The translations under genes and the position numbers were made by a program. A DNA stretch of 64,000 nucleotides from Sphingopyxis panaciterrae (GTDB lineage: Bacteria > Pseudomonadota > Alphaproteobacteria > Sphingomonadales > Sphingomonadaceae): assembly GCF_011762125.1 (NCBI RefSeq), contig NZ_JAASQN010000003.1, forward strand, positions 62,001-126,000, given 5' to 3'. Under the pieces are notes generated by a model. It was given only the letters and a program-made list of their open reading frames with translations. It was not told the DNA's origin and searched no databases. Position 1 is the first letter of the stretch; every line of letters begins with the position of its first letter. Shown one piece after another: positions 19,567 to 35,775 of the stretch.

Positions 19567-20550
19567 ATGCGCCGCCTGTTCCCTGCCGCCCTGATCTTTC
19601 TGGCCATCGGGCCGATGCCCGGAACGCTCCAGCTTACGCCCCGGATCGACCTGACCGAGCGCGTGGTGGTGCATCCGCTGCGCTTCCCGGCGAGTGAAGA
19701 GGGCATGTTGCGCTTCGTTCGCGGCTGGCGCCTCACGAGCCCGCACAGCTATTTCGGCGGCTTTTCGAGCGTGGCGCGAATCGGTCGCGACCGCTTTCAA
19801 CTCGTCGGCGACAATGGCTATTGGACGCGGCTGACCCTGACCGCCGCCGGCCACGCCAGCGACCTTCGCATCGCGGGGCTGCCGACACCCGATGGGCGCG
19901 CGCGGCGCAAATCGATGAACGATGCCGAGGCGATGGTCTTCGATCCGGTCAGCGGCAAAAGCTGGATCGCGCTCGAAGGGATCAACCAGGTCTGGCGCCT
20001 CGATTCGGATCTTTCCGCGATCGAATCGCGCCGCAAGCTGCCGGGCGGACCCGATTGGCCCTCGAATAGCGGACCCGAAGCGATGGCGCGCCTTGCCGAC
20101 GGGCGGACGGTGATCTTTTCCGAAGATGCCGATGACGATCCGCGCGGGCGCGAGGCGCTGCTCTATACCGGCGATCCCGCCGCACCGGGCGCGGCGCCGA
20201 TCCGCTTCTTCTACGATGCAGCGGGCAAGGGACTGGTCAGCGACGCTGCGGCGTTGCCCGATGGCCGCATCCTGCTCGTGCATCGGCGGCTCGGTTTCGA
20301 TCCCGTCTTCACGACGATCCTCGCGATCGTCGACCCGGACGATATCGGCAAGGATGCCGTCGTCCGTTCGCAGACGATCGGCCGCGTGCCGCGACCGCTG
20401 GCCGAAAATTACGAAGGGTCGGCGGTGGCGATCGAGGACGGGCGCACCTTCCTGTGGCTGGTGTCCGACGATAATTTCAACACGTGGCAGCGCAGCCTGC
20501 TGCTCCAGTTCGAACTGGTCGATCTGCCGCGACCCGGTTCTTCGCAATAG
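19567..20550 (+). CDS. Esterase-like activity of phytase family protein
   Basis: A predicted exported beta-propeller-like protein of 327 residues. It has the family blocks FGGFSSVARIGRDRFQLVGD, NDAEAMVFDPVSGKSWIALEG (split), NSGPEAMARLADGR and NYEGSAVAIEDG, which agree with the phytase-like esterase domain (PF13449). ATG 19567 is chosen because it opens with a signal-like hydrophobic segment (RRLFPAALIFLAIGP). Longer in-frame starts such as 19447 lack one. No strong ribosome site is evident. It ends at a bidirectional terminator shared with rpmB. Its substrate is unknown; the name reflects fold homology only. Confidence 0.8.
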   Translation: MRRLFPAALIFLAIGPMPGTLQLTPRIDLTERVVVHPLRFPASEEGMLRFVRGWRLTSPHSYFGGFSSVARIGRDRFQLVGDNGYWTRLTLTAAGHASDLRIAGLPTPDGRARRKSMNDAEAMVFDPVSGKSWIALEGINQVWRLDSDLSAIESRRKLPGGPDWPSNSGPEAMARLADGRTVIFSEDADDDPRGREALLYTGDPAAPGAAPIRFFYDAAGKGLVSDAAALPDGRILLVHRRLGFDPVFTTILAIVDPDDIGKDAVVRSQTIGRVPRPLAENYEGSAVAIEDGRTFLWLVSDDNFNTWQRSLLLQFELVDLPRPGSSQ

Positions 20551-20602
20551 CGCGTCGTTGCGCGCAATGACGATCCACGCCGCGGGATTTTCTTCGGGCA
20601 GC

Positions 20603-20638
20603 AAAAAGGCGGCGCCGGGCAAGCCGGGCCGCCTTTTG
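20603..20638. terminator. Bidirectional intrinsic terminator between phytase-like gene and rpmB
   Basis: AAAAGGCGGC pairs with GCCGCCTTTT, with CCGG/CCGG continuing the stem inside. The A/T tracts on both sides let it work for both convergent genes. Confidence 0.85.
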
Positions 20639-20660
20639 CGATTCGTGCGTAGGACGAAGC

Positions 20661-20954
20661 TTAAGCGGCCTTTTCGGCCAGCTTCTTTGCCACTTCCTTC
20701 TTCAGCTTGCGCGCCGAGGCCGACAGCTGGTCGTCGCCGGCCTTCAGCAGCCAATTGTCGAGGCCGCCATTATGTTCGACGGTGCGCAGGCCGTGGGTCG
20801 ACACGCGCAGCTTGTAACCCTGGCCGAGGGCGTCCGACAGCAAGGTCACATTCTGCAGGTTGGGCAGGAAGGTACGCTTGGTCTTGTTGTTGGCGTGGCT
20901 GACATTGTTGCCCACCATACGGCCCTTGCCGGTCAGTTCGCAAATGCGCGACAT
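20661..20954 (-). CDS. rpmB: 50S ribosomal protein L28
   Basis: L28 of the large ribosomal subunit, 97 residues. [20 protein letters not shown] is the diagnostic N-terminus, followed by [14 protein letters not shown]. The protein is the longer alphaproteobacterial form with a lysine-rich tail. It is a single-gene unit on the minus strand ending at the shared terminator. A perfect 14-bp tandem duplication lies in its 5' untranslated region (20971-20998). Confidence 0.97.
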
Positions 20955-20970
20955 GATGTTTGTCCTCGTT

Positions 20971-20998
20971 AAAAAAATCGGGTCAAAAAAATCGGGTC
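20971..20998. repeat. 14-bp tandem duplication in the rpmB leader
   Basis: AAAAAAATCGGGTC occurs twice with no spacer. In the rpmB mRNA this gives two GACCCGAUUUUUUU units, the nearer one ending 17 bases before the start codon. Confidence 0.9.
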
Positions 20999-21098
20999 GG
21001 CGTCCGGGCGCTTCCCGGGAAATCGGGGAAGGCAGGACCGGAGTGAGCCGGGAAAGGCGCGCGCTTATCGGCTTGCCGGGGATTCGTCAAGGGATTAG

Positions 21099-21563
<465 letters not shown>

Positions 21564-22024
21564 AAAATGTGAGTGGTTTTGGGTTGGATTGAAGCCCCAC
21601 CCATAGCCGTCATCCCGGCCTTCGCGGGCACACCTTTGTTATAACTCACTGAAGGTGCCCATTTGAAGGGTCGAGATGATATGGTTCGGAACGCAGCGGG
21701 GCGAATTAGCGCTGCTCCGAATCAACTCTTAAGCAGCGGGCCGTTCGTAGAATGAGCTCGCTTGCTTGGCTCGCGTCCGGCGAAGAATGGCGAGTTTGAG
21801 GTCGGAAACTGCCGCTCGTTCCATTCTTTTGTCATCTCCCGCGAATCCCGGAGCAACGCTGATATTATTACCGAACAGGCGACCTGCATTCGCTGGCTCG
21901 ACGATCAGCTTTTCAGTTCTTCCGCCGAGCACAGCGCACATCATGACGCCGCGTCCAGCACGATGCGTTCTTCCAACTGTCCAACTGGCCCTTCATCAGC
22001 AGCATGGAAAGCCTGCAGCTTCGT
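21564..22024. other. 461-bp gap at the left edge of the accessory island
   Basis: No convincing gene is seen. A fragment of a repeat (GTCATCCCGGCCTTCGCGGG near 21609) and AT-richer stretches are visible. A 71-codon minus-strand frame (21729-21944) has no ribosome site or family motif and may be decayed coding sequence. The composition looks less regular than in neighbouring intergenic gaps and may mark an old insertion scar. Confidence 0.4.
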
Positions 22025-22645
22025 TCAGAAGATGTCCGCAGGGTCTTCTCCCGGCACCGCCACAAGTCCGGCCGTCGTTGCCAAGCCTTGGCGAAGCGCA
22101 TGAAGTACGAAATCAGGCGACAGACTGCGGTCGGTGGTCAACTGAAATTCCGCGCCGGTGAATAGATGCATGTGAATCTCGGTCGTTTCCGCAAGGCCCA
22201 GCGGCAGCTTCACAATCCCAAGTTTTGCCAAACCGGCGAGGCTTTGCGTGACGTCTTCCCGATACAGAAACAAAAGCGTCGACAGGCTCTCCGGATTATC
22301 CTCCATCTGGGTGAGCTCGGCGGAAAACTGCAAAGACAATCGGAACCGCTTCGACGTTAGCGACCCCTTCTCTGGACGACCGTGAAAAAAGGTGGCGACA
22401 TATGCATCCCAGGATGTCGGCCGCGGACCACTGAGGCGATCGGCATGATCGAGAGCGCACGCCGCCGCGATCGCTTCTTCTCGCGTTCTGAAATGCGTGT
22501 ACAGCGCGCCGTTCGAAATATTCGCAGCACGACAAATATCGCGCTGCGACGTCGCATACACGCCCTTCTCCAGCAACACCCTTAACGCGGCGCGCGCGAT
22601 CGCTTCGCGTTGCGCTGCCATATACGCTTCGTCTCTCTTTGGCAT
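22025..22645 (-). CDS. TetR/AcrR-family regulator of the peptide-catabolism island
   Basis: A 206-residue repressor-type protein. The HTH RDICRAANISNGALYTHFRTREEAIAAAC (in two parts) is a clear TetR recognition unit; the C-terminal half is variable. It is divergent from the seven-gene operon at 22832-34240, with 186 bp between. That gap holds nested inverted repeats, which suggests it controls both itself and the operon. An effector such as a peptide or D-amino acid is inference. Confidence 0.87.
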   Translation of the reverse strand: MPKRDEAYMAAQREAIARAALRVLLEKGVYATSQRDICRAANISNGALYTHFRTREEAIAAACALDHADRLSGPRPTSWDAYVATFFHGRPEKGSLTSKRFRLSLQFSAELTQMEDNPESLSTLLFLYREDVTQSLAGLAKLGIVKLPLGLAETTEIHMHLFTGAEFQLTTDRSLSPDFVLHALRQGLATTAGLVAVPGEDPADIF

Positions 22646-22706
22646 GCCTCCTCTTAGCCCAGTTCATTTCCCGGTCATGCAAAAAAGCACTTGCCACGAA
22701 AAAAAA

Positions 22707-22758
22707 CTGAGCGCACAGTCTTTTATATTAGGACTGAAACAAACTGCTCTGCGCTGAG
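22707..22758. promoter_or_regulatory. Candidate operator in the divergent TetR/operon gap
   Basis: Outer arms CTGAGCGCA (22707-22715) and TGCGCTGAG (22750-22758) pair with one mismatch. Inside, CAGTC (22716-22720) and GACTG (22732-22736) flank an AT-rich centre that would suit a promoter -10. The position between the divergent starts fits a TetR-type binding site. Confidence 0.4.
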
Positions 22759-22831
22759 TCGACGGGAGCCTGGCATACGCGGGCTGGGTCAGGCTTTTCC
22801 GGGCAGAAATCGAGGAACCCGGCCAATTCTC

Positions 22832-23989
22832 ATGCAGTCCGCCTTTGATGTTGCTGTCGTCGGGGCGGGAATTGCCGGAGCTGGGGCCGCCGCCGATCTG
22901 TCGGATGGCCATAACGTTCTCCTGCTGGAGCAGGAGGAGCGGCCCGGCATGCATGCCACGGGTCGATCAGCCGCGCTGCATCTCGAAATCTACGGCAACG
23001 CGCTGATCCGTGCGCTCACCCAGGCCAGCCGCGACTTCTTCGAACAGGGCGCCGGCGCAAAGACCTTCGCAGGCCCGCGCGGTTGCCTGCATATTGCGAG
23101 TAACGAACAGCTCCCCGCACTGGAAGCGATCGCGGCGGAAGCGAATGTCGCTGACGTGGTCGAATGGATCGATGCGCGTCAGGCGTGCGATCTCGTCCCC
23201 GTCCTGCGCGAGGACTATATCGCCGCGGCCCTGTCAGAACGGTTTGCTTATGATCTCGACGTTGATGCGATCCACCATCACTTCCTGAAGCGTCTGCGTC
23301 AGCAGGGTGGGGTAATCCATAGTTCCGCGCGGGCGATGGATTGCACCTATGACGGCGCACAATGGACGATCGTCACGCCGCATGCGACATTCACCGCGAA
23401 GATACTGGTCAACGCCGCGGGGGCATGGGGCGATGTCGTCGCGCGGAGCGCTGGCGTCGCGCCGATCGGATTGACCCCCTGCCGCCGTAGCGCGCTGATT
23501 GTCGACGCCCCGGACGGAACCTCGCCGGCGCAATGGCCGGCGGTGATCGACATCGGCGGCGAATTCTATTTCAAGCCCGAGGCAGGCAAGATTCTGATGT
23601 CGCCGGCCGACGAGACTCCCAGCGAGCCGTGCGACACCTTTCCGGAAGAACTCGATCTCGCCATCGCCGTCGATCGCGTCCAGAAAGCTGCGGATATTCC
23701 GGTGCGGCGCATAGAGCATAGCTGGGCGGGCCTGCGCACATTCGCTGCGGACCGATCGCCCGTGGTCGGATTCGATCCGGATCATCCGGCGTTCTTCTGG
23801 CTGGTCGGACAGGGGGGATATGGGGTGCAGACCTCACCGGCGCTGTCCCGGCTCGCGGGCGCTCTGGTCCGCGGCGAGGAAATCCCCGCCGCCCTGGCCG
23901 CTCGCGGCATCCGCGCCGAACAGCTTTCACCGGCACGCTTTCACACCGCATCGCAACGCCAGCCGCGGGGATGCGTCGCTACCGAATGA
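22832..23989 (+). CDS. FAD-dependent D-amino acid dehydrogenase, DauA-like
   Basis: A DAO-superfamily flavoprotein of 385 residues. The FAD dinucleotide fold VVGAGIAGAGAA is at residues 9-20. It is followed by LLEQEERPGMHATGRSAA, LVPVLREDYI, VNAAGAWGD, CRRSALIVDAP, the HSWAGLRTFAADRSPVVGF block and FFWLVGQGGYGVQTSPA. This order of motifs matches D-arginine dehydrogenase (DauA) of Pseudomonas aeruginosa as I recall it, better than glycine or sarcosine oxidases. The reaction would be oxidative deamination of D-amino acids to 2-oxo acids. ATG 22832 starts MQSAFDVAVVGAG; upstream codons contain no fold. It is the first gene of the island operon, which ties the operon to D-amino acids. Confidence 0.82.
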   Translation: MQSAFDVAVVGAGIAGAGAAADLSDGHNVLLLEQEERPGMHATGRSAALHLEIYGNALIRALTQASRDFFEQGAGAKTFAGPRGCLHIASNEQLPALEAIAAEANVADVVEWIDARQACDLVPVLREDYIAAALSERFAYDLDVDAIHHHFLKRLRQQGGVIHSSARAMDCTYDGAQWTIVTPHATFTAKILVNAAGAWGDVVARSAGVAPIGLTPCRRSALIVDAPDGTSPAQWPAVIDIGGEFYFKPEAGKILMSPADETPSEPCDTFPEELDLAIAVDRVQKAADIPVRRIEHSWAGLRTFAADRSPVVGFDPDHPAFFWLVGQGGYGVQTSPALSRLAGALVRGEEIPAALAARGIRAEQLSPARFHTASQRQPRGCVATE

Positions 23990-24020
23990 CGCGACTGATA
24001 AGGCCAAAAGGGGACACGCA

Positions 24021-26228
24021 ATGAAGAAACTCTTGTTCAAGAATATGACCGCACGTCTTGCCATCGGTGTCGCGACATGCGCGCTGTCGGCGCCGCTGCA
24101 GGCACAGACGTTGCCCGACGACACGCCGGAGCCGGTCATGTCATCGGAAATCGTCGTCACCGCGCAAAAACGCTCGGAACGCCTGATCGATACGCCGCAG
24201 TCGGTCACATCGCTCACCGCAGCCGACCTCGAAAAGCTCAACGCGACGCAGTTCGTCGACTTCGCCAACACCGTTCCCGGTCTTCAATTCACCACGCTGG
24301 GCGCAGGATACACGCAGATCAGCCTGCGCGGGGTGACATCGGGTTCCGACACCAGCCCGACGGTCGGCATCTATGTCGACGAAGTCCCCTATGGATCCAG
24401 TTCGGCGTTCAATCAAAGCGTCGCGCGGGCGCTCGATGCCGCTTTGTTCGACATGGAGCGCGTCGAGGTGCTGCGCGGCCCGCAAGGGACGTTGTACGGG
24501 GCCAGTTCGATGGGCGGCGTGCTCAAATATGTGACTGCAAAGCCGACACTTAACGACGTGGAAGGCCATGTTCAGGCCGGTGTGTCGGACACACGCCATG
24601 GCGGCACCAGCTATCACGGCGCGGCCGCCATCAACCTGCCTGTCGTCACCGACAAGGTCGCGGTGCGGGCCAGCGGCTTTTTTTCGCGCGACGGCGGGTT
24701 CAACGATAATCCCGCGCGCGGACAAAAGGACGTCGATCGCAGTGAAACCTATGGAGGCCGCGCAGACGTGCTGATCGAGCCGACCGAAGACCTGTCCGTG
24801 CGCATCACCGGTTTCGCCCAGAACATCCGGCGCGAGGGTGCGCGCTACGCTGCCTATACGCTCGCCGGCAAGCCGGTCCATGGCGCGTTCGATCAGGATC
24901 ATCCGCTGGAGGAGCCGTTCAATTCCGATTTCCGCCTGATCAGCGGCACGATCAACTATGATTTCGGTTTCGCGGACCTGACCTCGATATCCAGCTATCA
25001 ATATTCGCGTACCGACCTGTTCACCGATGTTTCGGGGCTCTATGTACCGTTGCTGCCGCAGTTCGGCGTCGATGCTGGTGGCGCCGGAACGCGGTCGTTC
25101 AACAAGACCAGGAAGTTTGCGCAGGAAGTCCGGCTCGCGTCGAAGCAGGATCAGCCGCTACAATGGCTGCTCGGTGGATTTTACACGCACGAGCGGAGCC
25201 GGCTGTTCCAGGCGGTCGACACGTTCGACCAAGACCTTGTCCAGGTCCCGTTCAACCTCGGCAAGGTCGAGATTCCCAGCACTTATGAGGAATATGCCGT
25301 CTTCGGTAATTTGACCTATCATCTGACGGACAAGTTCAACATCACCGGCGGAATACGCTATGCCCACAACAATCAGCGGTTCGAGCAGATCGGATCCGGT
25401 CTGCTGATCGGCTCGGCGCCGGAGGCGAAGTCGAGCGAGAGCGTGGTGACCTATCTTGCCAATGCCCAGTATAAATTCAGCAACAATGCTACCGCCTATG
25501 CACGCTTTGCTACCGGCTATCGCCCCGGTGGTCCGAACTTCGTGATCCGCGACGCAGGGACCGGCGACCTGCTCGCCCCGACAAGCTTCAAATCGGACTC
25601 GCTGGAGAGCTATGAAGTCGGATTCAAGGCGCAGACGCGCGATCGCAGCTTCGCGATCGACCTGTCTGCATTCTATGTGGCGTGGGACGATATTCAGATC
25701 ATCACGGCGGTGCAGGGCCTGTCCGCGAACCTCAATGCCGGCACCGCAAAAATACGGGGCGCCGAACTCAACCTCACGGCCCGCCCCAGCGTCGACCTGA
25801 CTTTCACCGGCGCGTTCGCGTTTAACGATAGTGAGATCGGCGAGGACAATCCCGCGATCGGCGCGGTAAAGGGCGAGCGACTGCCCAATGTTCCGCGGTT
25901 CACCGCCGCGCTGAATGCAGATTATGTCGCCACGGCGAGCGCATCGAAGCCGTTCGTCGGCGCCACGCTGCGCTTCGTTTCGGACCGCACCGCCAGTTTC
26001 GACAATAGCGTCGGATTCCCGCAATATCAGCTGCCCGACTATACGTCGGTCGATTTGCGCGCCGGCTTGTCGATCGGCCCGGTTACCGGGCAGGTTTTTG
26101 CCCGCAATATCTTTGACAAGCGCGGTCAGCTTGCCGCCAACACGTCACAGGCGGCAGCCGGCGCGGCGGTCCTGACGACGCTGCTGCAGCCGCGCACTTT
26201 TGGGCTGAGCGCGTCGATGAAATTCTGA
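24021..26228 (+). CDS. TonB-dependent receptor (no STN domain)
   Basis: An outer-membrane transporter of 735 residues. The signal peptide is about residues 1-29 (cleavage after LQAQ). The TonB box is EIVVTAQKRSER, the plug contains SPTVGIYVDEVPYG and VEVLRGPQGTLYGASSMGG, and the barrel ends LSASMKF with the C-terminal Phe expected for insertion. It lies 31 bp after the DauA-like gene and 46 bp before the MFS gene. It is the likely uptake port of this operon, probably for a peptide or peptide-like compound too large for porins. Its close family (IDTPQSVT... receptors) is broadly expanded in sphingomonads. Confidence 0.92.
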   Translation: MKKLLFKNMTARLAIGVATCALSAPLQAQTLPDDTPEPVMSSEIVVTAQKRSERLIDTPQSVTSLTAADLEKLNATQFVDFANTVPGLQFTTLGAGYTQISLRGVTSGSDTSPTVGIYVDEVPYGSSSAFNQSVARALDAALFDMERVEVLRGPQGTLYGASSMGGVLKYVTAKPTLNDVEGHVQAGVSDTRHGGTSYHGAAAINLPVVTDKVAVRASGFFSRDGGFNDNPARGQKDVDRSETYGGRADVLIEPTEDLSVRITGFAQNIRREGARYAAYTLAGKPVHGAFDQDHPLEEPFNSDFRLISGTINYDFGFADLTSISSYQYSRTDLFTDVSGLYVPLLPQFGVDAGGAGTRSFNKTRKFAQEVRLASKQDQPLQWLLGGFYTHERSRLFQAVDTFDQDLVQVPFNLGKVEIPSTYEEYAVFGNLTYHLTDKFNITGGIRYAHNNQRFEQIGSGLLIGSAPEAKSSESVVTYLANAQYKFSNNATAYARFATGYRPGGPNFVIRDAGTGDLLAPTSFKSDSLESYEVGFKAQTRDRSFAIDLSAFYVAWDDIQIITAVQGLSANLNAGTAKIRGAELNLTARPSVDLTFTGAFAFNDSEIGEDNPAIGAVKGERLPNVPRFTAALNADYVATASASKPFVGATLRFVSDRTASFDNSVGFPQYQLPDYTSVDLRAGLSIGPVTGQVFARNIFDKRGQLAANTSQAAAGAAVLTTLLQPRTFGLSASMKF

Positions 26229-26274
26229 TCGGTAAAAAGAGAAATCGGTACAAAGAGAAAAGGAAAAGTTCACG

Positions 26275-27603
26275 ATGCGCGAAGGGCCGGATGCTTTGCA
26301 AGGAACGGGTTCGCCAGCGCGTTATCCCGGCATTGCCCGCGCTCGCTTCGCGCAGGCGGTTCTGGCGTCCATTGCCGTGTTCACGACAATGGACGCCGGG
26401 GTCGTCGTACTCCTCATCGAACCGATCAAGCACGAGATTGGGCTCAGCGACATTCAGGTCGGACTGATCAACACGACGGTCTATTATATCGCCTATGGGT
26501 TGCTGTGCATGCCGATGGGGATGCTGGCCGACCGCTGGAACCGCACCCGCCTGCTGACCTGCGCTGCCGCGCTGTGGTGTCTCGGGCTGACGCTGATGGG
26601 CACCGCGCAAGGGCTGGTGGCACTGATCTTGGCAAAGGTCGTGCTCGGCGCGGCGAGCGCGATCACCTATCCCGCCGCGCTTTCGCTATACTCCGATTAT
26701 TTCCCGCCGAGCCGACGAGCGCGGGCGACATCGACCTATATTCTCGGCCAGGTGGCGGGGCAGGCGCTCGCCATCCTCGTCGGCGGAAGCGGGTTCGCCT
26801 TCATCGCTGCTGCCACCGCGTCGAATCCCGTTTTTGGCCTGTCGCCGTGGCGCATTGTGTTCATTCTGTTCGCTGCGCTGGGGCTGTTGCTGATCCCCGC
26901 CCTGATCGCGCTGAAGGAACCGGCGCGCCAGGAAGTGGCGCAGCGCGGCGGCGGCACGTTTCGCGAACTATGGACCTATCGCCAAGTACTCACGCCACTG
27001 TTCGCGGGGATGATGTTCTTCACCTTCGCGTCGATTGGCGTGGTGAGTTGGATCGCGCCTGCGCTGATGCGCGTGTACGGCCAGCAGCCCGGCGACTTCG
27101 CGACCTGGCTGAGCCTGGTCCAGCTTACCGCGGGCATTGCTGGGGTGATTGCCGCCGGCAGACTGAGCGAGGTCGCACATCGCCGTGGCGGCCGCGGCAG
27201 CGTGATGCTGCCCGCGGCGCTCGCGGCAGCGCTGTGCGCGCCCGCTAGCTGGATGGCGACCGCGCCGAACCTGAGCTGGTTTGCGGCCGGGCTTTTCGTC
27301 TTCATGACTTGCAGCGCAGTCGCGATGGCGATCCCGGTGATCGCGATCAATTTCCGCATCCCCAACGAATTGCGCGGGCTGACCATGGGGCTGAATGTCG
27401 TGCTGATCTCGCTCGCCGGGGCTTGTGCTGCGCCGCTCGTCGCCGCAATCGGTCACGCGCTCGGCGGCGACGAGATGATCGGGCGCGCGATGGCGCTGAC
27501 TAGCGCGCCTTTTGCCTTGCTCAGCGCGCTCTGTTTCTGGTCGGCCGGGCGATTGACGGAGCCGGCGTCCCCGCCAGTTGCGAGTGAAAGCCACACCGCA
27601 TGA
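26275..27603 (+). CDS. MFS permease (MlrD-like position)
   Basis: An inner-membrane transporter of 442 residues with about 12 hydrophobic segments. It has the MFS loop GMLADRWNRTR between helices 2 and 3 and a SYS-DYFPPSRRARATS stretch. Its stop overlaps the S9 peptidase start by 4 nt (ATGA). By context it would carry the substrate or its fragments across the inner membrane. Its size and place beside S12 and M81 hydrolases recall mlrD of microcystin degraders, but the family alone (spinster-like/general MFS) does not prove this. A weak ribosome site (GAAAAGGAAAAG) precedes ATG 26275. Confidence 0.85.
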   Translation: MREGPDALQGTGSPARYPGIARARFAQAVLASIAVFTTMDAGVVVLLIEPIKHEIGLSDIQVGLINTTVYYIAYGLLCMPMGMLADRWNRTRLLTCAAALWCLGLTLMGTAQGLVALILAKVVLGAASAITYPAALSLYSDYFPPSRRARATSTYILGQVAGQALAILVGGSGFAFIAAATASNPVFGLSPWRIVFILFAALGLLLIPALIALKEPARQEVAQRGGGTFRELWTYRQVLTPLFAGMMFFTFASIGVVSWIAPALMRVYGQQPGDFATWLSLVQLTAGIAGVIAAGRLSEVAHRRGGRGSVMLPAALAAALCAPASWMATAPNLSWFAAGLFVFMTCSAVAMAIPVIAINFRIPNELRGLTMGLNVVLISLAGACAAPLVAAIGHALGGDEMIGRAMALTSAPFALLSALCFWSAGRLTEPASPPVASESHTA

Positions 27604-29948
27604 GCCGGCGTCGCGAACCGCTCCCCGCCTATGATCGCGCGCGCGCCGTGCTTCCGCAGGTCCTGGCTCCGCAACTGACCGGCAACGTGACAGAGGCCTA
27701 TTGGATCGACGATCATCGCCTGTTCTACACGGTGTCGCAGCGCGTTGACGGCGGGGCGATCCTGCTCCGGCCGATGATCGCCAATGCGCAGTCCGGGTCT
27801 TCGGCCAGCGCGATCGCGTTCGACGATCTTCTGGAATTGCTGTCGAACCAGCCGGGCAAGATGCTGGCGCTCAGCGATCTTGCCGGCGCGACCTATGATA
27901 TGCCGGGCGGCGACCGGCTGGTGGCAACCATATCGGGTGTCGCCTATCATATCGCACTCGACCGCCACGCGCTGATCGCGATTGAGTCTCTCGATCCGCT
28001 GCCCGCCCTTTATTCGCCGGACGGGCGGAACGCGGCCTTTCTTAAGGATCATACGGTCTGGCTGCGCGACCGCGCCACCGGCATCGAGACATGTTTGTTT
28101 CCAGACGGCGAACCGCTCTATCAGTTCGGTCATCCTATCGAAGCCGGTGCCGCACCGCTCGCCGCGCGTCGCCACCCGGTGCCGCAGGGGCTGTGGTCTG
28201 CGGATTCGGCATGGTTCGTCACCCATCGGATCGATGAGCGCCACCTGCCGGACGGCGAGCTGGTCGAACATGCGCCCGCAAATGGCGGCCGGCCGATCGT
28301 GCATCGCTATAAAGTATCGCTGGCGGGCGATCCTCTGCCGCGGGTCGAGTTCATCGCAGTGCATGTCGCTACCGGACGCATCGTCTCGGCGGCCGATGAA
28401 CCGACGATCCCGCAGGCCTTTTCGCCTTTCCAGTTCCGCGACTGCTGGTTCGCGGGCGGCTGTTTCTATTATCTTACCCATGATCGCTTCTGCGCGACGA
28501 TCGGACTGATCGAGCTCGATCTTCAAACCGGAACGCTGCGCCGGGTGATCGAGGAAAAGGCCGGGAGCGGCTGGCTTGACACGAGCGCCTCCCTTGGCAG
28601 CCAGCCATTGATCCGCGTGCTTCCCGCCTCGTCCGAACTGATCTGGTACTCGGAAGCCGACGGGTACGGCCATCTTTACCTCCACGACCTTCGTTCGGGC
28701 GCATGCAAGAACCGCATCACCCAAGGCGCGTGGATGGTTCGCGAGATCGTGCAGGTCGATGAGCAGGCGCGCCGCATCCTTTATCTCGCCAACGGCACGG
28801 AAGGCGCGCGGGATCCGTCGTTGCGGCGCCTGTACGCGATCGACTTCGACGGGACCCAAAACACGATGGTGCTGGCGTGCGACAACGATATCGGCATCCG
28901 GCCGGACGTTGTCGCCGGTGTCGAGCAGACGCGGCCCCATCGGCCATCATACGCATCGTCGGGTCTATCGCCCGACGGGAGCCATGTCGCCACGAGCCTG
29001 GGTGCCGCGAACGTGCCAACGCGCACCGTCATCACCGATATAGAGACGCAGCGCGACCTGCCGCTGGCCGAAAGCAACATCAATGACTTTTGGCATGGGC
29101 CGAAGCCGCTGACGTTCGAGGTGCTGGCGTCCGATGGCGTCACGAAGCTGTATGGCGCGTTGTATCTGCCGTCCGATTTCGATGCGAGCCGATCCTATCC
29201 GCTGGTCGATTATATCTATCCCGGCCCGCAGACCAACTGGTTCCAACGGCGCTTTCCGACGGCCGACGCGTTGCTGCTGCAATCTCTGGCAGAACTGGGC
29301 ATGGTTGGCGTCATCGTCGAAAGCCGCGGCCTGCCGCTGCGCGGTCGCGCCTTTCATCAGGCCGGGCGCGGCAGCCTTCATGAACCGCAACTGGGTGATC
29401 ATGCCGCCGTGATGTTGCAGCTATGCGAAAGATATCAGTTTATCGACCGCAACCGCATCGGCATCTTCGGCCAGTCAGGCGGCGGTCATTCCGCAGCGCG
29501 CGCGCTGTTCGACTATCCGGAGGTCTTCAAGACCGGCGTGTCGATCTGCGGCAATCACGACTGCCGCAACTATATCTCTTTCTGGATCGACAAATATGGC
29601 GGGCGACCCGGCACGCCGGCGCGCGATGCGCAGTCGAACCTCGACGCCGCGGCGCGGCTGCAGGGAGCATTGCTGCTTATCCACGGGGACATGGACGACA
29701 ATGTCCATGTCGGACAGACGCTCGCGCTCAGCGCCCGGCTCAGCGAGGCAGGAAAGCGGTTCCGGCAACTGATCATTCCCGGAGCCGGACACGGCGTAAT
29801 TTTCGAAAGCGCGGCCGCCATCACGGCGATTTGGGATTTCTTCGCGGAGCATCTGCTGGATGCAGAACCGCCGAAGGACTTCGCGCTGGCCTTCGACCTT
29901 ACGGAGGCGGGCGCCGGCCTCCACCGCATGATTTCCGGAAATTATTAA
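27600..29948 (+). CDS. S9-family prolyl oligopeptidase (DPP IV-like)
   Basis: A serine peptidase of 782 residues. The N-terminal beta-propeller (DPPIV_N-like) covers about residues 1-530. An alpha/beta-hydrolase domain follows, with catalytic Ser626 in GQSGGG, Asp699 in GDMDDNVHVG and His731 in GAGHGV. No signal peptide is visible, so it is probably cytoplasmic, in line with transport of peptides before cleavage. The family removes N-terminal dipeptides, usually after Pro or Ala, or cuts short oligopeptides. It is translationally coupled to the MFS gene by an ATGA overlap and followed 10 bp later by the first S12 hydrolase. Confidence 0.9.
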   Translation: MSRRREPLPAYDRARAVLPQVLAPQLTGNVTEAYWIDDHRLFYTVSQRVDGGAILLRPMIANAQSGSSASAIAFDDLLELLSNQPGKMLALSDLAGATYDMPGGDRLVATISGVAYHIALDRHALIAIESLDPLPALYSPDGRNAAFLKDHTVWLRDRATGIETCLFPDGEPLYQFGHPIEAGAAPLAARRHPVPQGLWSADSAWFVTHRIDERHLPDGELVEHAPANGGRPIVHRYKVSLAGDPLPRVEFIAVHVATGRIVSAADEPTIPQAFSPFQFRDCWFAGGCFYYLTHDRFCATIGLIELDLQTGTLRRVIEEKAGSGWLDTSASLGSQPLIRVLPASSELIWYSEADGYGHLYLHDLRSGACKNRITQGAWMVREIVQVDEQARRILYLANGTEGARDPSLRRLYAIDFDGTQNTMVLACDNDIGIRPDVVAGVEQTRPHRPSYASSGLSPDGSHVATSLGAANVPTRTVITDIETQRDLPLAESNINDFWHGPKPLTFEVLASDGVTKLYGALYLPSDFDASRSYPLVDYIYPGPQTNWFQRRFPTADALLLQSLAELGMVGVIVESRGLPLRGRAFHQAGRGSLHEPQLGDHAAVMLQLCERYQFIDRNRIGIFGQSGGGHSAARALFDYPEVFKTGVSICGNHDCRNYISFWIDKYGGRPGTPARDAQSNLDAAARLQGALLLIHGDMDDNVHVGQTLALSARLSEAGKRFRQLIIPGAGHGVIFESAAAITAIWDFFAEHLLDAEPPKDFALAFDLTEAGAGLHRMISGNY

Positions 29949-29958
29949 AGGATTTCTC

Positions 29959-31095
29959 GTGACGCAGACGTCTGCCTACGTTCCCCGCACCGCATCTGGC
30001 GTCGACGCCGTCGAACGCTTCGATCGTATCGTGCAGGACCTCGTCGATCGCCTCGGCAACCTTGGCGCACTGGTTGTGATCGACGTCGATGGCGTCGGCC
30101 GGGTGAATTTCACTGCTGGCCATGCAGATCGGGAGCGGTCGCGCGCGGTGACGCCGAACGACATTTTTCAGATCGGCAGCCAGAGCAAGACGATTACCGC
30201 GATGCTGCTGGTGTTGCTTGCGCGCGACGGCAGAATCGATCTCGACTCACCGGTGCGTGACTATCTCGATCTGCCGATCGACCGACGGATCACATCGCGA
30301 CACTTGTTGATGAACACATCAGGGCTCGGCGAGTTCAGCCGTGCGCTGGGCGACCATTTCGACATGCGGATTCCGTTCGCGCCACGCGACCTGGTTGCGC
30401 TTGCCCTGCCGCAGGGGCAATTGTTCGAACCGGGCAATCGCTTCGACTATTGCAACACCGGCTGGGTGATCGCGGCGATGATCGCCGAGGCGGTGACGCA
30501 GCGGCGTTACGGCGATCTTGTCGCGGAACGGATCGTCGCACCGCTTGCTCTGCGCAACACGGCATTCGGCGCCTTCCCGCCGGGTGACCCAATGCGCGGA
30601 TATTGGATGCTTTCGGGCCAGCCCGAACCGGTGGACATCACCGGCGCATTATCCTGGGCCTATGGCTGCGGCGACGGCATCGCGAGCGCAAACGACATCC
30701 TGACGATCTATCAAAGCCTGCTGCGACCGGACAGTCCGCTCGGCATCACGCTGGGCGATCTCGCCGCGGCGACGGCCAGCCCTTCGCAAAATCCGGCATT
30801 CGCACTGAGTCTTGGCCTCGATTATGCGCTGGGCCTCGAACGCCGGGCATGGGCGGGCCGCGAAGTCTGGGGTCACCCCGGATCGACCGAAGCGACGCGC
30901 AGTTCGACCTGGATCGATGCCGGCGCAGGGGTCGCGGTGACCACCGCCGTTACCATCGTTCACGGTGCGAGCCCAATCGGCGACGATATCCGCTATCCGC
31001 GCGAACAATTGTTCGCAATGGCGCTGCAGACCGGATATGCGCTGGCGACCGAACGCCCCGTCCACGCCGCGCGGGTGATGGACATGGCGGAATGA
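29959..31095 (+). CDS. S12 (beta-lactamase-fold) serine hydrolase 1
   Basis: A 378-residue penicillin-binding-protein/beta-lactamase-fold hydrolase. Ser74-x-x-Lys77 (SQSK) is the nucleophile pair, Tyr164-Cys-Asn166 (YCN) the second motif, and HPGSTEATRS the third (H.G replacing KTG). There is no signal peptide. The start is GTG 29959. The stop overlaps the next S12 gene by 4 nt (ATGA). Members of this family include D-aminopeptidases, esterases and MlrB, which opens linear microcystin. Linked with a D-amino-acid dehydrogenase and an M81 peptidase, an amide or peptide substrate is the best guess. Confidence 0.85.
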   Translation: MTQTSAYVPRTASGVDAVERFDRIVQDLVDRLGNLGALVVIDVDGVGRVNFTAGHADRERSRAVTPNDIFQIGSQSKTITAMLLVLLARDGRIDLDSPVRDYLDLPIDRRITSRHLLMNTSGLGEFSRALGDHFDMRIPFAPRDLVALALPQGQLFEPGNRFDYCNTGWVIAAMIAEAVTQRRYGDLVAERIVAPLALRNTAFGAFPPGDPMRGYWMLSGQPEPVDITGALSWAYGCGDGIASANDILTIYQSLLRPDSPLGITLGDLAAATASPSQNPAFALSLGLDYALGLERRAWAGREVWGHPGSTEATRSSTWIDAGAGVAVTTAVTIVHGASPIGDDIRYPREQLFAMALQTGYALATERPVHAARVMDMAE

Positions 31096-32678
31096 CCATG
31101 TCCATCAATTCCATGCGCGTCAGGGCCGACGCTGAGGCGCTGGACGTGATCTTTACCACAGCGAACCAGTGCCACCTGCCCGGCATTGCCGTCGGCGTCG
31201 CGATCGATGACGTGCCGGTCTATCGCCGGGGCTTCGGCCGCGCGAGCATGGAACTTCCGGTCGCGCTAACCCCGACGACGCGCATGCGTATCGCATCGGT
31301 GACCAAGCATTTCACGGCTCTCGCCTTCATGCTCCTGCAGGAGCAGGGCCTGTGCTCGCTCGATGATGCGATCGGAAGACATGTGCCCGATCTGCACGAT
31401 GCGACGCGGCATGTGACGGTTCGGCAACTGATGGGCCACACGAGCGGCATCCGCGATCTCTATGCCATCACCATGCTGTTGCACGGAACCGGCCGGCACG
31501 TCTCCGACCGGGAGATGATCGAATATTACCGAACGATCGATGACCGGGATTTCGAGCCGGGAACGAACTGGAGCTACAACAACGGCGGCTATGTGCTGTT
31601 GACGGCAGCGATCGAGCAGATTGCGGGGGAGCCCTTTGAAGAGGTGCTGCGCAAGCGCATCTTCGACCCGGTGGGCATGCACGATAGTCTCCTGCGGCGA
31701 TGGGACGATGATTTCGTTCCGAACAGCGCAACCTTGCACATGCGGAACCGACAGGGCGAACATACACGCGACTATATGGGGATGGAACTGACCGGCGCCG
31801 GCGGTATCGCATCGACCGTCGACGATATGCTGCGCTGGATGAAGCATATGCGTTCCCCTGTCGTCGGGTCGGCGCAAACGTGGCAGACGATGCGCGAACC
31901 ACATCGCCTCGGCAGCGGGTTCATCACCGGCTATGGTTTGGGATTGGCGATCGGCCGCTATCGGGGTGTCGAAACGGTCTCTCACAATGGCGGCGTGCTG
32001 GGCGGCAGCGCGCAGATGATATCCGTTCCCGCCCTCGCGCTCGATGTCATCGTCATGACCAACGGCGTCGACGCAAGCTGCGCGCAACTCGCAAATCGCG
32101 TCGTCGATGTGTGCGTCGAGGGTCTGGAGACCGAGCCCGAACCGGGCGTATGGGACGCGAAGTCGACGGTCTATCAGTCGCCCGGCAGCGGCCGCGTCAT
32201 TCAATTGTCGCCGCAGGGTGGCGCGCAGGCGCTGTCCATCGACGGTGGACCGTTCATTCCCGTCACGCCGGATCAGGCTGGCGCGTTGCGCTTTCCCGTC
32301 ACGATGGACTTCATCAGGCAATGGCTTTGCCTCGACGAAACCGGAGCGACATTCTTCGATTTCGGCAACGCGGACCGGATGGACGCGTTCGAGCCCAGCA
32401 CAGCCTCGCTCGGTTCGCATGCCGGGCGCTATGTCTGCATGGCGCTCGGCGCCAGCATCGAGGTCAGGGACACATCCGACGGGCCCATGCTTTCGACCTG
32501 CGGCCGTCATGGGCGAGCAGACTATCTCTTGTCCCCGCTTCGATCGGATATCTGGCGAGCGGACACCTGCGGCCCCTTCTCGTTGCTCGGCGCGATGCTG
32601 ACCTTTGCCGAAGATGGCCAGAGCCTCGCCTTCACCGCCGGGCGCCTGAACCGGCTGACATTCAGGCGCGAGCATTGA
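31092..32678 (+). CDS. S12 serine hydrolase 2, D-aminopeptidase-like
   Basis: A 528-residue S12 hydrolase. The catalytic domain has Ser69-V-T-Lys72, Tyr162-Asn-Asn164 and His298 in SHNGG. It is followed by about 200 residues of beta-rich C-terminal domains (AGRYVCMALGASIEV, then FSLLGAMLTF). The length and motif spacing are close to the Ochrobactrum anthropi D-aminopeptidase DAP (about 520 residues, Ser62/Lys65/Tyr153/His287 as I recall). That enzyme removes N-terminal D-residues. With the DauA-like dehydrogenase it would release D-amino acids and then deaminate them. The start ATG 31092 is coupled to the previous gene; ATG 31098 is an alternative. No signal peptide is seen. Confidence 0.83.
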   Translation: MTMSINSMRVRADAEALDVIFTTANQCHLPGIAVGVAIDDVPVYRRGFGRASMELPVALTPTTRMRIASVTKHFTALAFMLLQEQGLCSLDDAIGRHVPDLHDATRHVTVRQLMGHTSGIRDLYAITMLLHGTGRHVSDREMIEYYRTIDDRDFEPGTNWSYNNGGYVLLTAAIEQIAGEPFEEVLRKRIFDPVGMHDSLLRRWDDDFVPNSATLHMRNRQGEHTRDYMGMELTGAGGIASTVDDMLRWMKHMRSPVVGSAQTWQTMREPHRLGSGFITGYGLGLAIGRYRGVETVSHNGGVLGGSAQMISVPALALDVIVMTNGVDASCAQLANRVVDVCVEGLETEPEPGVWDAKSTVYQSPGSGRVIQLSPQGGAQALSIDGGPFIPVTPDQAGALRFPVTMDFIRQWLCLDETGATFFDFGNADRMDAFEPSTASLGSHAGRYVCMALGASIEVRDTSDGPMLSTCGRHGRADYLLSPLRSDIWRADTCGPFSLLGAMLTFAEDGQSLAFTAGRLNRLTFRREH

Positions 32679-32683
32679 ACGGA

Positions 32684-34240
32684 ATGCAAATGCCACGAAC
32701 AAATCGACGCCGACTCCGTATATTCGTCGCTTGCCTGGCGCATGAAACGAACAGCTTTTCGCCGTTACCGACGAGCCTGCGCAGTTTTGAGGACGATGTC
32801 TGCTATCGCCCTCCAGCATCGCGGGGTCGGGACAAAGCCCTCGCCTTTGCCGGCTATGGCAATGCAATCGCTATTGGCCGCGACCTGGGACACGAGATGA
32901 TTGAAGGTCCGTGCTTCTGGGCGCAACCGTCGGGCCCGGCCTCAGCGTCGACATATACGATGTTGAGAGACGAGATCCTCGCGCGGCTTGCCAAGGCCGG
33001 TGAGATCGATATCGTCATCCTTCACCTTCACGGCGCCATGATCGCTTCGAGCACCGACGACTGCGAAGGCGATATTCTCACCCGCATCCGCAAGCAGGTC
33101 GGCCCAGACGTCACGATCGGCGTCGTGCTCGATCTGCACGGCAACATGTCACCGCAAATGATCGAAAGCGGCGCCGTCCTGATAGGATGCAAGGAATATC
33201 CGCACACGGACTTTGTCGCGCGGACTAAGGAACTCTATGCGATTGTCGAAGACGTCGTCTTCGATCAGTCCCGCCTGACAACGACACTGCGAACGATCCC
33301 GGTGCTCAGCCTCCAGGGCACGACCGAGGAGCCAATGCGGAGCGTGGTCAATGCGCTCGTCGCTGCAGAGGGACGCGATGGCATTCGTTCGGTCACGCTC
33401 ATGCATGGCTTTCCATGGGCCGATTCGGAGCACAGCGGCGCGTCCGTCGTCATCGTTGCGCAGGACGCCGAGCAGCATGTTGTCGATGGCGTGGCGGACA
33501 CCATCGCATCCCGATTCCTGTCGGCAATTCAGGACACCCCATCGCGCCGTGACGATGTAACAGCGGCGCTCGATCGTGCCATGGCACTTCGTTCCAGGCT
33601 CGGGCCGATCATCGTCGCTGACAGTTCCGACAACCCTGGCGGGGGTGCAGCGGGAGACAGCACCTTCTTGCTCCGGGCGTTGATCGAGCGGCAGTGCGAC
33701 GCTGCGGCGATCGGCATGATTTGGGATCCCCAAGCAGCGCAGATCGCCGCGGATGCCGGGCCGGGCAGCACGCTTGCGATCAGGGTCGGCGGCAAGATTG
33801 GCCCGATGTCCGGAGCCCCGCTGGATCTGGAAGTCGAGGTGCGGTCCGTTCGATCGGATGTTAGCCAGCGTTTTTTCTCGGATATTCCGAATAGTCCGCT
33901 GGGACTGACCGCAGCCCTGCGGATTGGCAGCATCGACATCATCGTAAACTCGATCCGGCAGCAAGTTCTGTCGCCCGAGTGTTTCACAGAATTAGGCGTA
34001 GATCTAAAGAGCAAATCCGTCGTCGTCGTCAAATCGAGTCAGCATTTCCGTGCGAATTTTGATTCTATTGCGGCCAGCACGATCTATTGCAACGCGCCCG
34101 GCACGCTTAGCGTCGACCTCGGCCAGATGCCCTATAGAAATCTGAGACTTTCCCAGTGCGCCGATGGATTTTTCACCGACAAGTCGCCGCGACACTATGA
34201 TCGGCTTCACTCACGAGCATCGCCTCTGCAACGTCCGTAA
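32684..34240 (+). CDS. M81-family metallopeptidase (MlrC-like)
   Basis: A putative zinc peptidase of about 518 residues. FVACLAHETNSFSP is the M81/DUF1485 start, followed by ILHLHGAMIASSTDDCEGD, VVLDLHGNMS and GCKEYPHTD; the acidic and histidine residues of these motifs are the likely metal site. A C-terminal MlrC domain is present (IIVADSSDNPGGGAAGDST in pieces). MlrC in microcystin degraders cleaves linear and tetrapeptide intermediates to release Adda. Many M81 members outside mlr clusters act on other small amides. It begins 5 bp after the S12 gene and closes the operon; the start may be ATG 32684 or 32690. Confidence 0.87.
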   Translation: MQMPRTNRRRLRIFVACLAHETNSFSPLPTSLRSFEDDVCYRPPASRGRDKALAFAGYGNAIAIGRDLGHEMIEGPCFWAQPSGPASASTYTMLRDEILARLAKAGEIDIVILHLHGAMIASSTDDCEGDILTRIRKQVGPDVTIGVVLDLHGNMSPQMIESGAVLIGCKEYPHTDFVARTKELYAIVEDVVFDQSRLTTTLRTIPVLSLQGTTEEPMRSVVNALVAAEGRDGIRSVTLMHGFPWADSEHSGASVVIVAQDAEQHVVDGVADTIASRFLSAIQDTPSRRDDVTAALDRAMALRSRLGPIIVADSSDNPGGGAAGDSTFLLRALIERQCDAAAIGMIWDPQAAQIAADAGPGSTLAIRVGGKIGPMSGAPLDLEVEVRSVRSDVSQRFFSDIPNSPLGLTAALRIGSIDIIVNSIRQQVLSPECFTELGVDLKSKSVVVVKSSQHFRANFDSIAASTIYCNAPGTLSVDLGQMPYRNLRLSQCADGFFTDKSPRHYDRLHSRASPLQRP

Positions 34241-34267
34241 TCCCACGCAAAGGAATTAAAAGAGGCT

Positions 34268-34900
34268 TGAATAGCCCCTAGTTTGCTATACGCTTTCCGC
34301 TTTCAAAATCTGCTGCTGTTCGAACTGGACGGGTGACAGTATCCCGTTTCTCACCGGATTGTAGAACATCTCAATGTAATCGAACACGTCCTGCCGGGCT
34401 TCCTCGCGTGTTTTGTAGGTGGGGCGCCGAATGCGCTTGAGCGACGAGAAGAAGCTCTCGGCGACGGCATTGTCATGGCCGTTGCTGATGAACAGCGAGC
34501 CCTGATCGGGATGGATCAATACCCGCTGTTTCGGTTTGCGCCGCCATACGGCCTGTGCAGCGCCTGTAGCGCCGCATCGGCAGTCTGGCGGCTTTGCATC
34601 GACCAACCTATCATCCGGCGGGAATAGAGATCGATCACGATGGCCAGATAGCCAAAGCCTCCAAGGTGCGGATATAGTTGATGTCTATCACCCAAGCCGA
34701 TCTGGCGCAGCCACGTCAAACTGGCAATCCAGAGTGTTGTCGACCAGCAGGGACGGTTTTGCCACCATAGCTGCCGCTTCCAGGCGTAGAGCGAATGCTG
34801 GCTGACGCCGAGCCGCCGAGAAACCTCAGCTATCGGATATTGCCGGGCGCTTCGGTCCGCCGTCCGATCGCTGTGCTGAACGCTCCGCTGGCCTCGCTCT
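34268..34900 (-). pseudogene. Decayed IS3-family element
   Basis: On the minus strand an OrfA-like helix-turn-helix piece (VSRRLGVSQHSLYAWKRQ) is fused after a large deletion to OrfB integrase pieces: FGYLAIVIDLYSRRMIGWSM and, after a frameshift near 34550, NAVAESFFSSLKRIRRPTYK and IEMFYNPVRNG. The downstream frame retains the catalytic Glu of ESFFSSLK. A plausible terminal repeat (TGAATAGCCCC) starts at 34268; the other end was not found. The element cannot transpose by itself. It borders the M81 gene by about 28 bp and marks the right edge of the accessory island. Confidence 0.85.
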
Positions 34901-34959
34901 GGGTGCCGATATTTGTAACGGCAGCTACCGGCCGCAACCCGCCATGATCCTTCGAAGCG

Positions 34960-35664
34960 TCATTCCTCCAGCATCTCCGCAACCCACGCCGGCACCAGCG
35001 CGCTTGCCGGGCCATGGCGCGCGGCGTCGAACCAGTGGGTTCCCTGGCTCGGCTCCATGTTGAGTTCCAGCGTCGCGGCGCCCGACGCGCGCGCCTCGCG
35101 CACGAAGCCCGCGGCGGGATAGACCGCGCCCGAGGTGCCGATCGACACGAACAGGTCGGCGCGGTTCAAGGCGCGATAAATATCCTCCATCCGATACGGC
35201 ATCTCGCCGAACCAGACGACATCGGGGCGAAGCAGGCCGGCCACGCCGCACGCCGGGCAGGCGGGCCGGTCGCCGAGCGGGCCCAGCCAGCTGCTCCGCG
35301 CATCGCAGGCGGTGCACCACGCCTTCAGATGCTCGCCATGCATATGGATCAGCCGCCGTGCCCCGGCGCGTTCGTGCAGATCGTCGACATTCTGGGTCAC
35401 GATCAGCAATTCGCCCGTCCATTGGGCGTCGAGCCGCGCCAGCGCGTCGTGCGCCGCATTGGGCTGTTTGGTCTGGATTGCCGCGCGCCGCATGTCGTAG
35501 AAGCGCTGGACGAGGTCGGGGTCGCGCGCGAAGGCTTCGGGGGTCGCGACATCCTCGACCCGGTGCTGTTCCCACAATCCGCCGCCGTCGCGAAAGGTGT
35601 CGATGCCGCTTTCGGCCGACACCCCGGCGCCGGTCAGGATGACGATGCTCCGGATTTCACCCAA
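34960..35664 (-). CDS. cobB: NAD-dependent protein deacylase (sirtuin, CobB-like, class III)
   Basis: A Sir2-family enzyme of 234 residues that removes acyl groups from lysines with NAD+. GAGVSAESGI and FRD.GGLW at the N-terminus, TQNVDDLHERAG, the catalytic His in HMHGEH, and the zinc pairs CTAC and CPAC are visible. Y-x-x-R in FYDMRR is the class III signature linked with desuccinylase/demalonylase activity. The likely start is TTG at 35662-35664, with GGAG eight bases before it inside a repeat. It is divergent from dapB. The call is firm; the start codon is less so. Confidence 0.92.
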   Translation of the reverse strand: MGEIRSIVILTGAGVSAESGIDTFRDGGGLWEQHRVEDVATPEAFARDPDLVQRFYDMRRAAIQTKQPNAAHDALARLDAQWTGELLIVTQNVDDLHERAGARRLIHMHGEHLKAWCTACDARSSWLGPLGDRPACPACGVAGLLRPDVVWFGEMPYRMEDIYRALNRADLFVSIGTSGAVYPAAGFVREARASGAATLELNMEPSQGTHWFDAARHGPASALVPAWVAEMLEE

Positions 35665-35674
35665 TGCCTGAACT

Positions 35675-35763
35675 CCGTTCGTCCCGAGCTTGTCGAAGGA
35701 CCATTCTTCGCCTTATGGCGTGATGAAACAAGAACGGCCCTTCGACAAGCTCGGGGCGAACGG
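35675..35763. repeat. REP-like inverted repeat, family 3, in the cobB/dapB divergent gap
   Basis: Arms CCGTTCGTCCCGAGCTTGTC-GAAGG (35675-35699) and its reverse complement (35739-35763) pair over 25 bp with one mismatch. The centre has a second partial pairing (CCATTCTT with AAGAACGG). The unit occupies 89 of the 111 bp between the two divergent starts, so promoters must overlap it. Confidence 0.85.
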
Positions 35764-35775
35764 GGAATCGGGTTC

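Follow-up and report, generated by a model that had tools for sequence, protein, structure and literature searches.

What is the function of the eight-gene block at positions 22025-34240 of the Sphingopyxis panaciterrae window (the whole 64,000-nt stretch analysed here, from contig NZ_JAASQN010000003.1, with position 1 as its first letter), in which an outer-membrane receptor and a permease are encoded beside several peptidases and a D-amino-acid dehydrogenase? The best-supported reading, to which we give a probability of about 0.58, is that the block was acquired horizontally and serves as an operon for the catabolism of small peptides containing D-amino acids, with uptake by a TonB receptor and an MFS permease, cytosolic hydrolysis by the S9, S12a, S12b and M81 enzymes, and oxidation of the freed D-amino acids. 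The block is composed of a divergent TetR gene and seven tightly packed plus-strand genes. L and G labels denote the loci and genomes compared.

22025-22645, minus strand: TetR-family regulator (Pfam TetR_N, 41.6 bits), divergent from the operon
22646-22831: divergent intergenic stretch of 186 bases between the TetR and dehydrogenase genes, presumed promoter/operator
22832-23989, plus strand: DauA-like FAD D-amino-acid dehydrogenase, predicted pocket for neutral side chains (Pfam DAO; DauA structures PDB 3nyc and 6p9d, 271 and 269 bits)
24021-26228, plus strand: TonB-dependent outer-membrane receptor (Pfam Plug 78 bits, TonB barrel 123 bits)
26275-27603, plus strand: MFS permease, weakly like the galactonate/anion subfamily (MFS_1, 127.8 bits)
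27600-29948, plus strand: S9 dipeptidyl-peptidase-IV-like serine peptidase (Peptidase_S9 123.6 bits, DPPIV_N 98.2 bits)
29959-31095, plus strand: S12a serine hydrolase (Pfam Beta-lactamase, 174.5 bits)
31092-32678, plus strand: S12b D-aminopeptidase-like serine hydrolase (Pfam Beta-lactamase, 207.5 bits)
32690-34240, plus strand: M81 zinc peptidase (Pfam DUF1485 252.9 bits, cut-off 22.8; MlrC_C 180.2 bits, cut-off 27.2)

All eight products exceed the Pfam cut-off for their class, and the genes, order, strands and catalytic motifs reported in an initial annotation, made from the sequence alone, are recovered throughout. The plus-strand genes run in the order DauA-like dehydrogenase, TonB receptor, MFS permease, S9, S12a, S12b and M81, and are spaced by 31, 46, -4, 10, -4 (or 2) and 11 bases, so that a single transcription unit is likely. 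The start of the dehydrogenase is most likely 22832 (the first in-frame codon lies at 22691), S12b begins at 31092, overlapping S12a by 4 bases, or alternatively at 31098, and M81 begins at 32684 or 32690 within a longer frame. The TetR protein reaches no equivalog cut-off in the NCBIfam search, and a TetR operator sought in 22646-22831 as an inverted repeat (arms of at least 7 bases, at most 30 apart) was not found.

The catalytic residues of the hydrolases, as expected from the motifs of the S9, S12 and M81 families, are in place. In S9 they are Ser626, Asp699 and His731. The corresponding residues are Ser74-Lys77, Tyr164, Asn166 and His306 in S12a, and Ser67-Lys70, Tyr160, Asn162 and His296 in S12b. 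Glu19, Asp148, His150 and His172 of M81 align with the zinc ligands Glu39, Asp167, His169 and His191 of MlrC. Three of these ligands are present in all 212 aligned rows and the fourth in 208, with gaps in the remaining 4; together with both Pfam domains above cut-off, they place the window protein in peptidase family M81. S12a has its best PDB match in an alkaline D-peptidase (4y7p, 102 bits). For S12b, a profile built with seven relatives covers almost all of the D-aminopeptidase 1ei5 in an alignment (positions 8-494 of the 531 in the profile against 2-477 of the 520 in the chain) and shares its SxxK, YxN and HxG motifs, whereas the protein itself scores 129.8 bits in NCBIfam, far short of the 443-bit D-aminopeptidase cut-off. 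The D-aminopeptidase spacing ascribed earlier to one S12 enzyme is thus borne out by the alignment and motifs but does not extend to the curated model. In the S12 tree, S12b lies within a 16-row clade (branch value 98) drawn from clusters that contain DauA and M81. The S9, S12a, S12b and M81 proteins show no signal sequence as judged by eye, and the permease scores 95.5 bits against a cut-off of 395 for TIGR00893. A lasso-peptide isopeptidase identity for S9 was dropped (17.4 vs 400 bits).

The dehydrogenase is 39% identical over 370 residues to DauA of Pseudomonas aeruginosa. It retains Arg222, Arg305, Tyr249, Tyr53 and Gln336, whereas Glu87 is replaced by Cys, His48 by Leu and Glu246 by Gly, and in the window the enzyme is encoded together with peptidases. 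According to PMC11193025, Arg222 and Arg305 of DauA bind the substrate carboxylate, Glu87 and Glu246 bind the guanidinium group, and the P. aeruginosa enzyme accepts all D-amino acids except D-Asp and D-Glu. Among 43 near full-length DauA-like proteins aligned, Arg222, Arg305, Tyr249, Gly303 and Gln336 are invariant and Tyr53 is present in 42. Glu87 occurs in none of them (Ala in 26, Cys in 7, Val in 6, Thr in 3 and Met in 1), nor does His48; Glu246, a Gly in the window enzyme, is kept in 40. Since the carboxylate-binding residues are kept and the arginine-binding Glu87 is lost, the enzyme is predicted to act, probably, on D-amino acids with neutral side chains. The DauA assignment of the initial annotation therefore stands for overall identity and the carboxylate residues, but not for the D-Arg pocket.

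The pairing of a DauA-like gene with M81 recurs in other bacteria. Four M81 sequences served as queries against genome contigs; of the 563 loci obtained, the top 80 were kept, a set thus chosen for likeness to the window M81. Three were left out (L090, which is broken, and L091 and L153, duplicates of L025 and L028), leaving 77, to which five further loci were added for counts over 82. Genes near M81 were scored at 150 bits or more for DauA and S9 and at 200 bits or more for S12a and MlrF-like D-aminoacylases; M81 segments shorter than 380 residues were left out, and the Cupriavidus CH34 stretch contained no listed genes. M81 has a DauA-like gene within 2 kb in 32 of the 77 loci, within 5 kb in 41 and within 10 kb in 43, and an MlrF-like D-aminoacylase within 10 kb in 24 of them. 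With matches above 230 bits, eight genomes carry only 1-4 DauA-like genes each, so chance adjacency to M81 should be rare. Of 205 rows, the control genes DnaK, DapB, DnaJ and Nth fall within 5 kb of M81 in 0, 1, 1 and 0, as against 49 for DauA (at 100 bits).

Beyond this pair, DauA, TonB, MFS and S12b relatives are all found within 10 kb of M81 in 10 of the 82 loci besides the window, with varying order and strand (L083, L084, L085, L087, L089, L146, L162, L025, L032 and L036); Pelomonas, Aerophototrophica, Xanthomonas massiliensis, Brevundimonas, Scleromatobacter and Variovorax are among their hosts. The window order without S9 and S12a is present, at 53-61% identity, in Novosphingobium organovorum (L083, which has a second M81 gene) and Rhizorhabdus histidinilytica (L091, the same as L025). 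In these loci, the TonB receptor relatives occupy the equivalent position with 58% and 61% identity, respectively, and the permease relatives are 53-54% identical. The importer varies from cluster to cluster. In Variovorax paradoxus (L113), an XRE regulator gene is followed by DauA, M81, a solute-binding protein, two permeases, two ATPases and a D-aminoacylase-like protein; Dpp/Opp-type domains (SBP_bac_5, OppC_N, oligo_HPY) mark the binding protein, the two permeases and the first of the ATPases, and Cupriavidus basilensis (L101) has the same gene order by reading. These two clusters thus share with the window the DauA-like and M81 genes, together with a peptide-type importer and a D-aminoacylase-like hydrolase of their own, but use an ABC importer and an XRE-type regulator instead of TonB/MFS and TetR, and show no S12 or S9 match. 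Moreover, a Massilia metagenome-assembled genome has a POT oligopeptide symporter in its cluster (TIGR00924, 255 bits vs a cut-off of 130.2), a Sulfitobacter plasmid cluster has annotated TRAP genes (DauA 42.6% and M81 39% identical), and the Xanthomonas massiliensis cluster also holds RidA and an M17 leucyl aminopeptidase. The DauA/M81 core therefore recurs in part of the M81 family with interchangeable importers (TonB plus MFS, Dpp/Opp-type ABC, POT, TRAP). Among the matches listed in a search of open-licence literature, covering titles and abstract openings, no paper on a DauA/M81 cluster was found.

These observations are consistent with the following course of events. The TonB receptor would carry the peptide across the outer membrane and the MFS permease across the inner membrane. 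In the cytoplasm, S9 would trim dipeptides of ordinary residues, S12a and S12b would split off D-residues in the manner of a D-aminopeptidase, and the M81 zinc peptidase, like MlrC, may act on bonds beside residues that are D-configured or modified. The neutral D-amino acids set free would then be converted by the DauA-like flavoenzyme into 2-oxo acids and ammonia, and TetR would keep the operon repressed until it binds the peptide or one of its products. The DauA-like and D-aminoacylase-like genes near M81 elsewhere lend the D-peptide reading support from outside the window, and the import of a D-residue peptide followed by D-amino-acid oxidation, as suggested at the outset, is supported by the recurring DauA/M81 core with its importers and D-aminoacylase-like proteins.

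The block is an island inserted between tadA and cobB, two genes that adjoin each other in most relatives.

21564-34959: inserted island, 13.4 kb, between tadA (21108-21563, plus strand) and cobB (34960-35664, minus strand)
34270-34950 (ends approximate), minus strand: remains of a broken transposase at the island's right end, with stops in its frames; we take it to be IS3-like

Among 21 genomes of the same genus, the window's own included, cobB is found in 20 and tadA in 20. The two genes lie 5-245 bases apart in 14 of the 19 other genomes holding both; in the remaining 5 the distance is about 15 kb (G941), the genes are far from each other, or they lie on separate contigs. In G950 of the same genus, blastn matches window positions 20010-21563 and 34970-36497 to L269 251-1733 and 1737-3280, so that 3 bases separate the flanks where the window has 13.4 kb. 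M81 at an E value of 1e-60 or better is present in one of the 18 other same-genus genomes listed, at 45% identity. A search for direct repeats in 21500-35000 returned at least 60 families, of which the 20 listed are short or, when long, less than 80% alike, and none of these marks both ends. The island named in the initial annotation is thereby confirmed by the 14 of 19 neighbouring pairs and the 3-base junction; the insertion itself is directly visible in this comparison, and horizontal acquisition of the operon shares the probability given above for the D-peptide reading as a whole. The tadA-cobB site of G941 (L268 1643-16669) contains about 15 kb of other genes, cytochrome-oxidase-like on reading, and may thus be a hot spot for insertions.

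The operon may also be composite. No S9 or S12a relative occurs within 10 kb of M81 in any of the 77 loci, so the full seven-gene order, which the initial annotation had proposed to look for in other genomes, has no counterpart at the other loci examined. Within the family few genomes have S12a: at E 1e-50 it occurs in 2 of 298, one of which is the window's own. In G168, S9 (44.7%) and S12a (53-54%) relatives form a pair beside a divergent TetR; the 19.9 kb around this pair contain no M81 match. On Paracoccus plasmids, an S12a relative (44-45%) directly precedes M81, and S9 (30-31%) and TetR relatives are close by.

L265 3174-14259: cluster on plasmid 1 of Paracoccus denitrificans PD1222 with M81, S12a, S9, M17 and M42 members

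This plasmid cluster resembles the window in its TetR, S9, MFS, S12a-type, M81 and FAD oxidoreductase genes (the last with 30% identity to the DadA-type query), but has no TonB or S12b relative of comparable strength and adds M17 and M42 aminopeptidases. The G168 pair and the Paracoccus arrangement suggest that S9 and S12a, perhaps with TetR, may be a module inserted after the MFS gene into a set of DauA, TonB, MFS, S12b and M81.

Several observations weigh against a D-peptide operon, or against extending such a role across the M81 family. In 27 of the 82 loci, none of DauA, TonB, MFS and S12b lies within 10 kb of M81; TRAP carriers in some M81 clusters suit small acids as well as peptides; the window has neither the RidA nor the D-aminoacylase present in some relatives; and it carries TetR where relatives often have an XRE-cupin regulator. 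DauA is near M81 in 43 of 76 loci of the M81-related set, but in only 5 of 30 loci of family and order relatives. An even sample of 398 Pseudomonadota genomes contains 59 with M81, which gave 93 matches and 85 rows kept in the tree. Only one of these 85 rows (L181), the window's operon aside, has a DauA-like gene scoring 150 bits or more no farther than 6 kb from M81. L201 and L214 have weaker DauA matches (147 and 128 bits) about 6.4 kb from M81, at the edge of the DNA examined. The M81 tree (FastTree, 213 rows, with 4 early-stop rows left out) splits into 68 and 145 rows (branch value 100). The half of 68 has no DauA-labelled row, and 34 of the 54 DauA-positive rows fall into one Burkholderiales-rich clade of 42, so these cases are not independent. 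The half of 145 holds the window, MlrC and all 54 DauA-labelled rows; about 23 of its rows stem from the even sample, by a reading of the printed tree. The DauA label requires 16 changes on this tree compared with a shuffled mean of 47.9. Under its 6-kb limit, the window, where DauA is 8.7 kb from M81 within the operon, and the window-type M81 of L083, with DauA farther off in the same cluster, are scored as negative. Taken together, the even-sample, relative and tree counts identify the DauA pairing as a trait of parts of one M81 superclade. D-peptide specificity of M81 as a whole is not supported by the even sample.

The families M81, S12 and MFS are also those of the mlr cluster (Novosphingobium sp. 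MD-1 type, L066), and the operon could accordingly be a microcystin or nodularin pathway that starts from the linear toxin. The window M81 is 38% identical to MlrC over 463 residues and shares its zinc ligands, and true mlr, according to PMC4520899, also has the D-peptide-type partners mlrE (a dipeptidase) and mlrF (a D-aminoacylase). However, the window adds the DauA-like dehydrogenase, the TonB receptor, S9 and a second S12, and no MlrE or MlrF match is found in the island. Its M81 scores 340.6 bits vs 999 for the MlrC equivalog and belongs to a 10-row clade (branch value 96; 99 for nine of the rows) separate from MlrC. Among the MlrC substrate residues, whose roles are taken from PMC9982164, Trp59, Phe67, Glu70, Phe96, Gln468, Ser485 and Arg492 correspond to Tyr, a gap, Arg, Trp, His, Ala and Met in the window protein, and Asn41, Asp341 and Ser392 are kept. 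S12b is 28% identical to MlrB over 341 residues and lies outside the MlrB rows of the S12 tree, S12a is 32% identical to the mlr S12 over 203 residues, and the permease does not match MlrD (20 bits). In addition, to judge by eye, the hydrolases seem to be cytosolic, in contrast to MlrB, which PMC12474180 reports as periplasmic. The absence of mlrA noted at the outset is upheld, with no MlrA match in the island and a best own-genome match of 33.9 bits over 99 residues. Within the order, a single genome of 396 has an M81 over the MlrC cut-off, at a position that agrees with the mlr coordinates of Novosphingobium sp. MD-1 given in PMC7082461; a plasmid search for true mlrC yielded nothing above 42.9%. 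Membership in mlr is therefore rejected by profile, identity, tree and substrate residues. Judged by sequence, the operon is related to mlr at the family level only, its M81 standing apart from MlrC. The special kinship with mlrBCD first proposed is not supported, and a toxin pathway is very improbable. A cyanobacterial peptide is a possible substrate, although nothing in the data points to one.

Other substrates or roles would retain the D-residue theme. The operon might conceivably destroy D-residue peptide antibiotics for protection rather than feed on them, as the alkaline D-peptidase match of S12a and a D-stereospecific peptidase that hydrolyses gramicidin A (reported in PMC9541196) would allow; the presence of a receptor, a permease and a product dehydrogenase, the lack of a recognised exporter in the operon, and the peptide ABC importers of related clusters make this quite unlikely. 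Scavenging of peptidoglycan fragments of other bacteria (L-Ala-D-Glu-...-D-Ala) would suit the kinship of S12 enzymes with D-Ala-D-Ala carboxypeptidases, and D-Ala, being neutral, would fit the predicted DauA pocket. Yet Pfam and NCBIfam identify no amidase, LD-carboxypeptidase, NagZ or AmpG among the eight products, and we regard this source as unlikely. There is also a small chance that the substrate is an N-acyl- or opine-like D-amino-acid conjugate instead of a peptide, with the peptidase folds acting as amidases: the Sulfitobacter cluster combines TRAP carriers with an amidohydrolase, others hold D-aminoacylase-like proteins, and the MFS permease is weakly of the organic-anion type. The serine peptidases of window-type clusters, the M17 leucyl aminopeptidase in Xanthomonas and the M17 and M42 enzymes in Paracoccus speak instead for peptides, in line with the catabolic D-peptide operon that we favour.

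A broader proposal can be put forward tentatively, and is more doubtful than the function of the operon itself. The M81 superclade around the window protein and MlrC might consist of general peptidases for D-residue peptides, found in parts of the superclade in clusters with neutral-type DauA and interchangeable importers across Alpha-, Beta- and Gammaproteobacteria, and the microcystin pathway might be one specialisation of a wider, undescribed D-peptide diet. MlrC is the sole M81 member with a described action found in this analysis. Should the pairing with DauA and D-aminoacylase be functional, a testable role would be gained for part of a large peptidase family that is still uncharacterised, the origin of the microcystin-degrading enzymes would become approachable, uptake of D-residue peptides would be a nutrition trait in sphingomonads and Burkholderiales, and the clusters would offer enzymes for D-peptide chemistry.

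Some further M81 loci are of note. Sphingosinicella microcystinivorans contains a broken window-type M81 (L027 7288-8761, L090 939-2412), and in G242 (L035) an M81 that groups with MlrC stands beside MlrA-, MlrE- and MlrF-like genes. Tandem or close M81 pairs, with the copies in separate subclades, occur in several lineages (L029, L030, L070, L075, L092, L094, L095). Neighbours of M81 genes of the rhizobial type include RidA and weakly D-serine-dehydratase-like proteins (50-90 bits and 22-28% identity for the latter; one of 352 bits in L225), which are not used as proof. The genome of the window has a second M81 locus outside it (L031, G000:C3:442000-461900; 43% identity) with RidA-, XRE- and DadA-like genes by reading and, by Pfam, S9, S15, an M19 dipeptidase and a D-serine-dehydratase-like protein, which we read as another cluster of the D-peptide type. 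In the same genome, a 51% identical paralogue of the MFS permease (L041, G000:C2:338000-357900) lies beside an AraC/DJ-1 regulator, an ornithine-cyclodeaminase-like protein and a DAO-family dehydrogenase.

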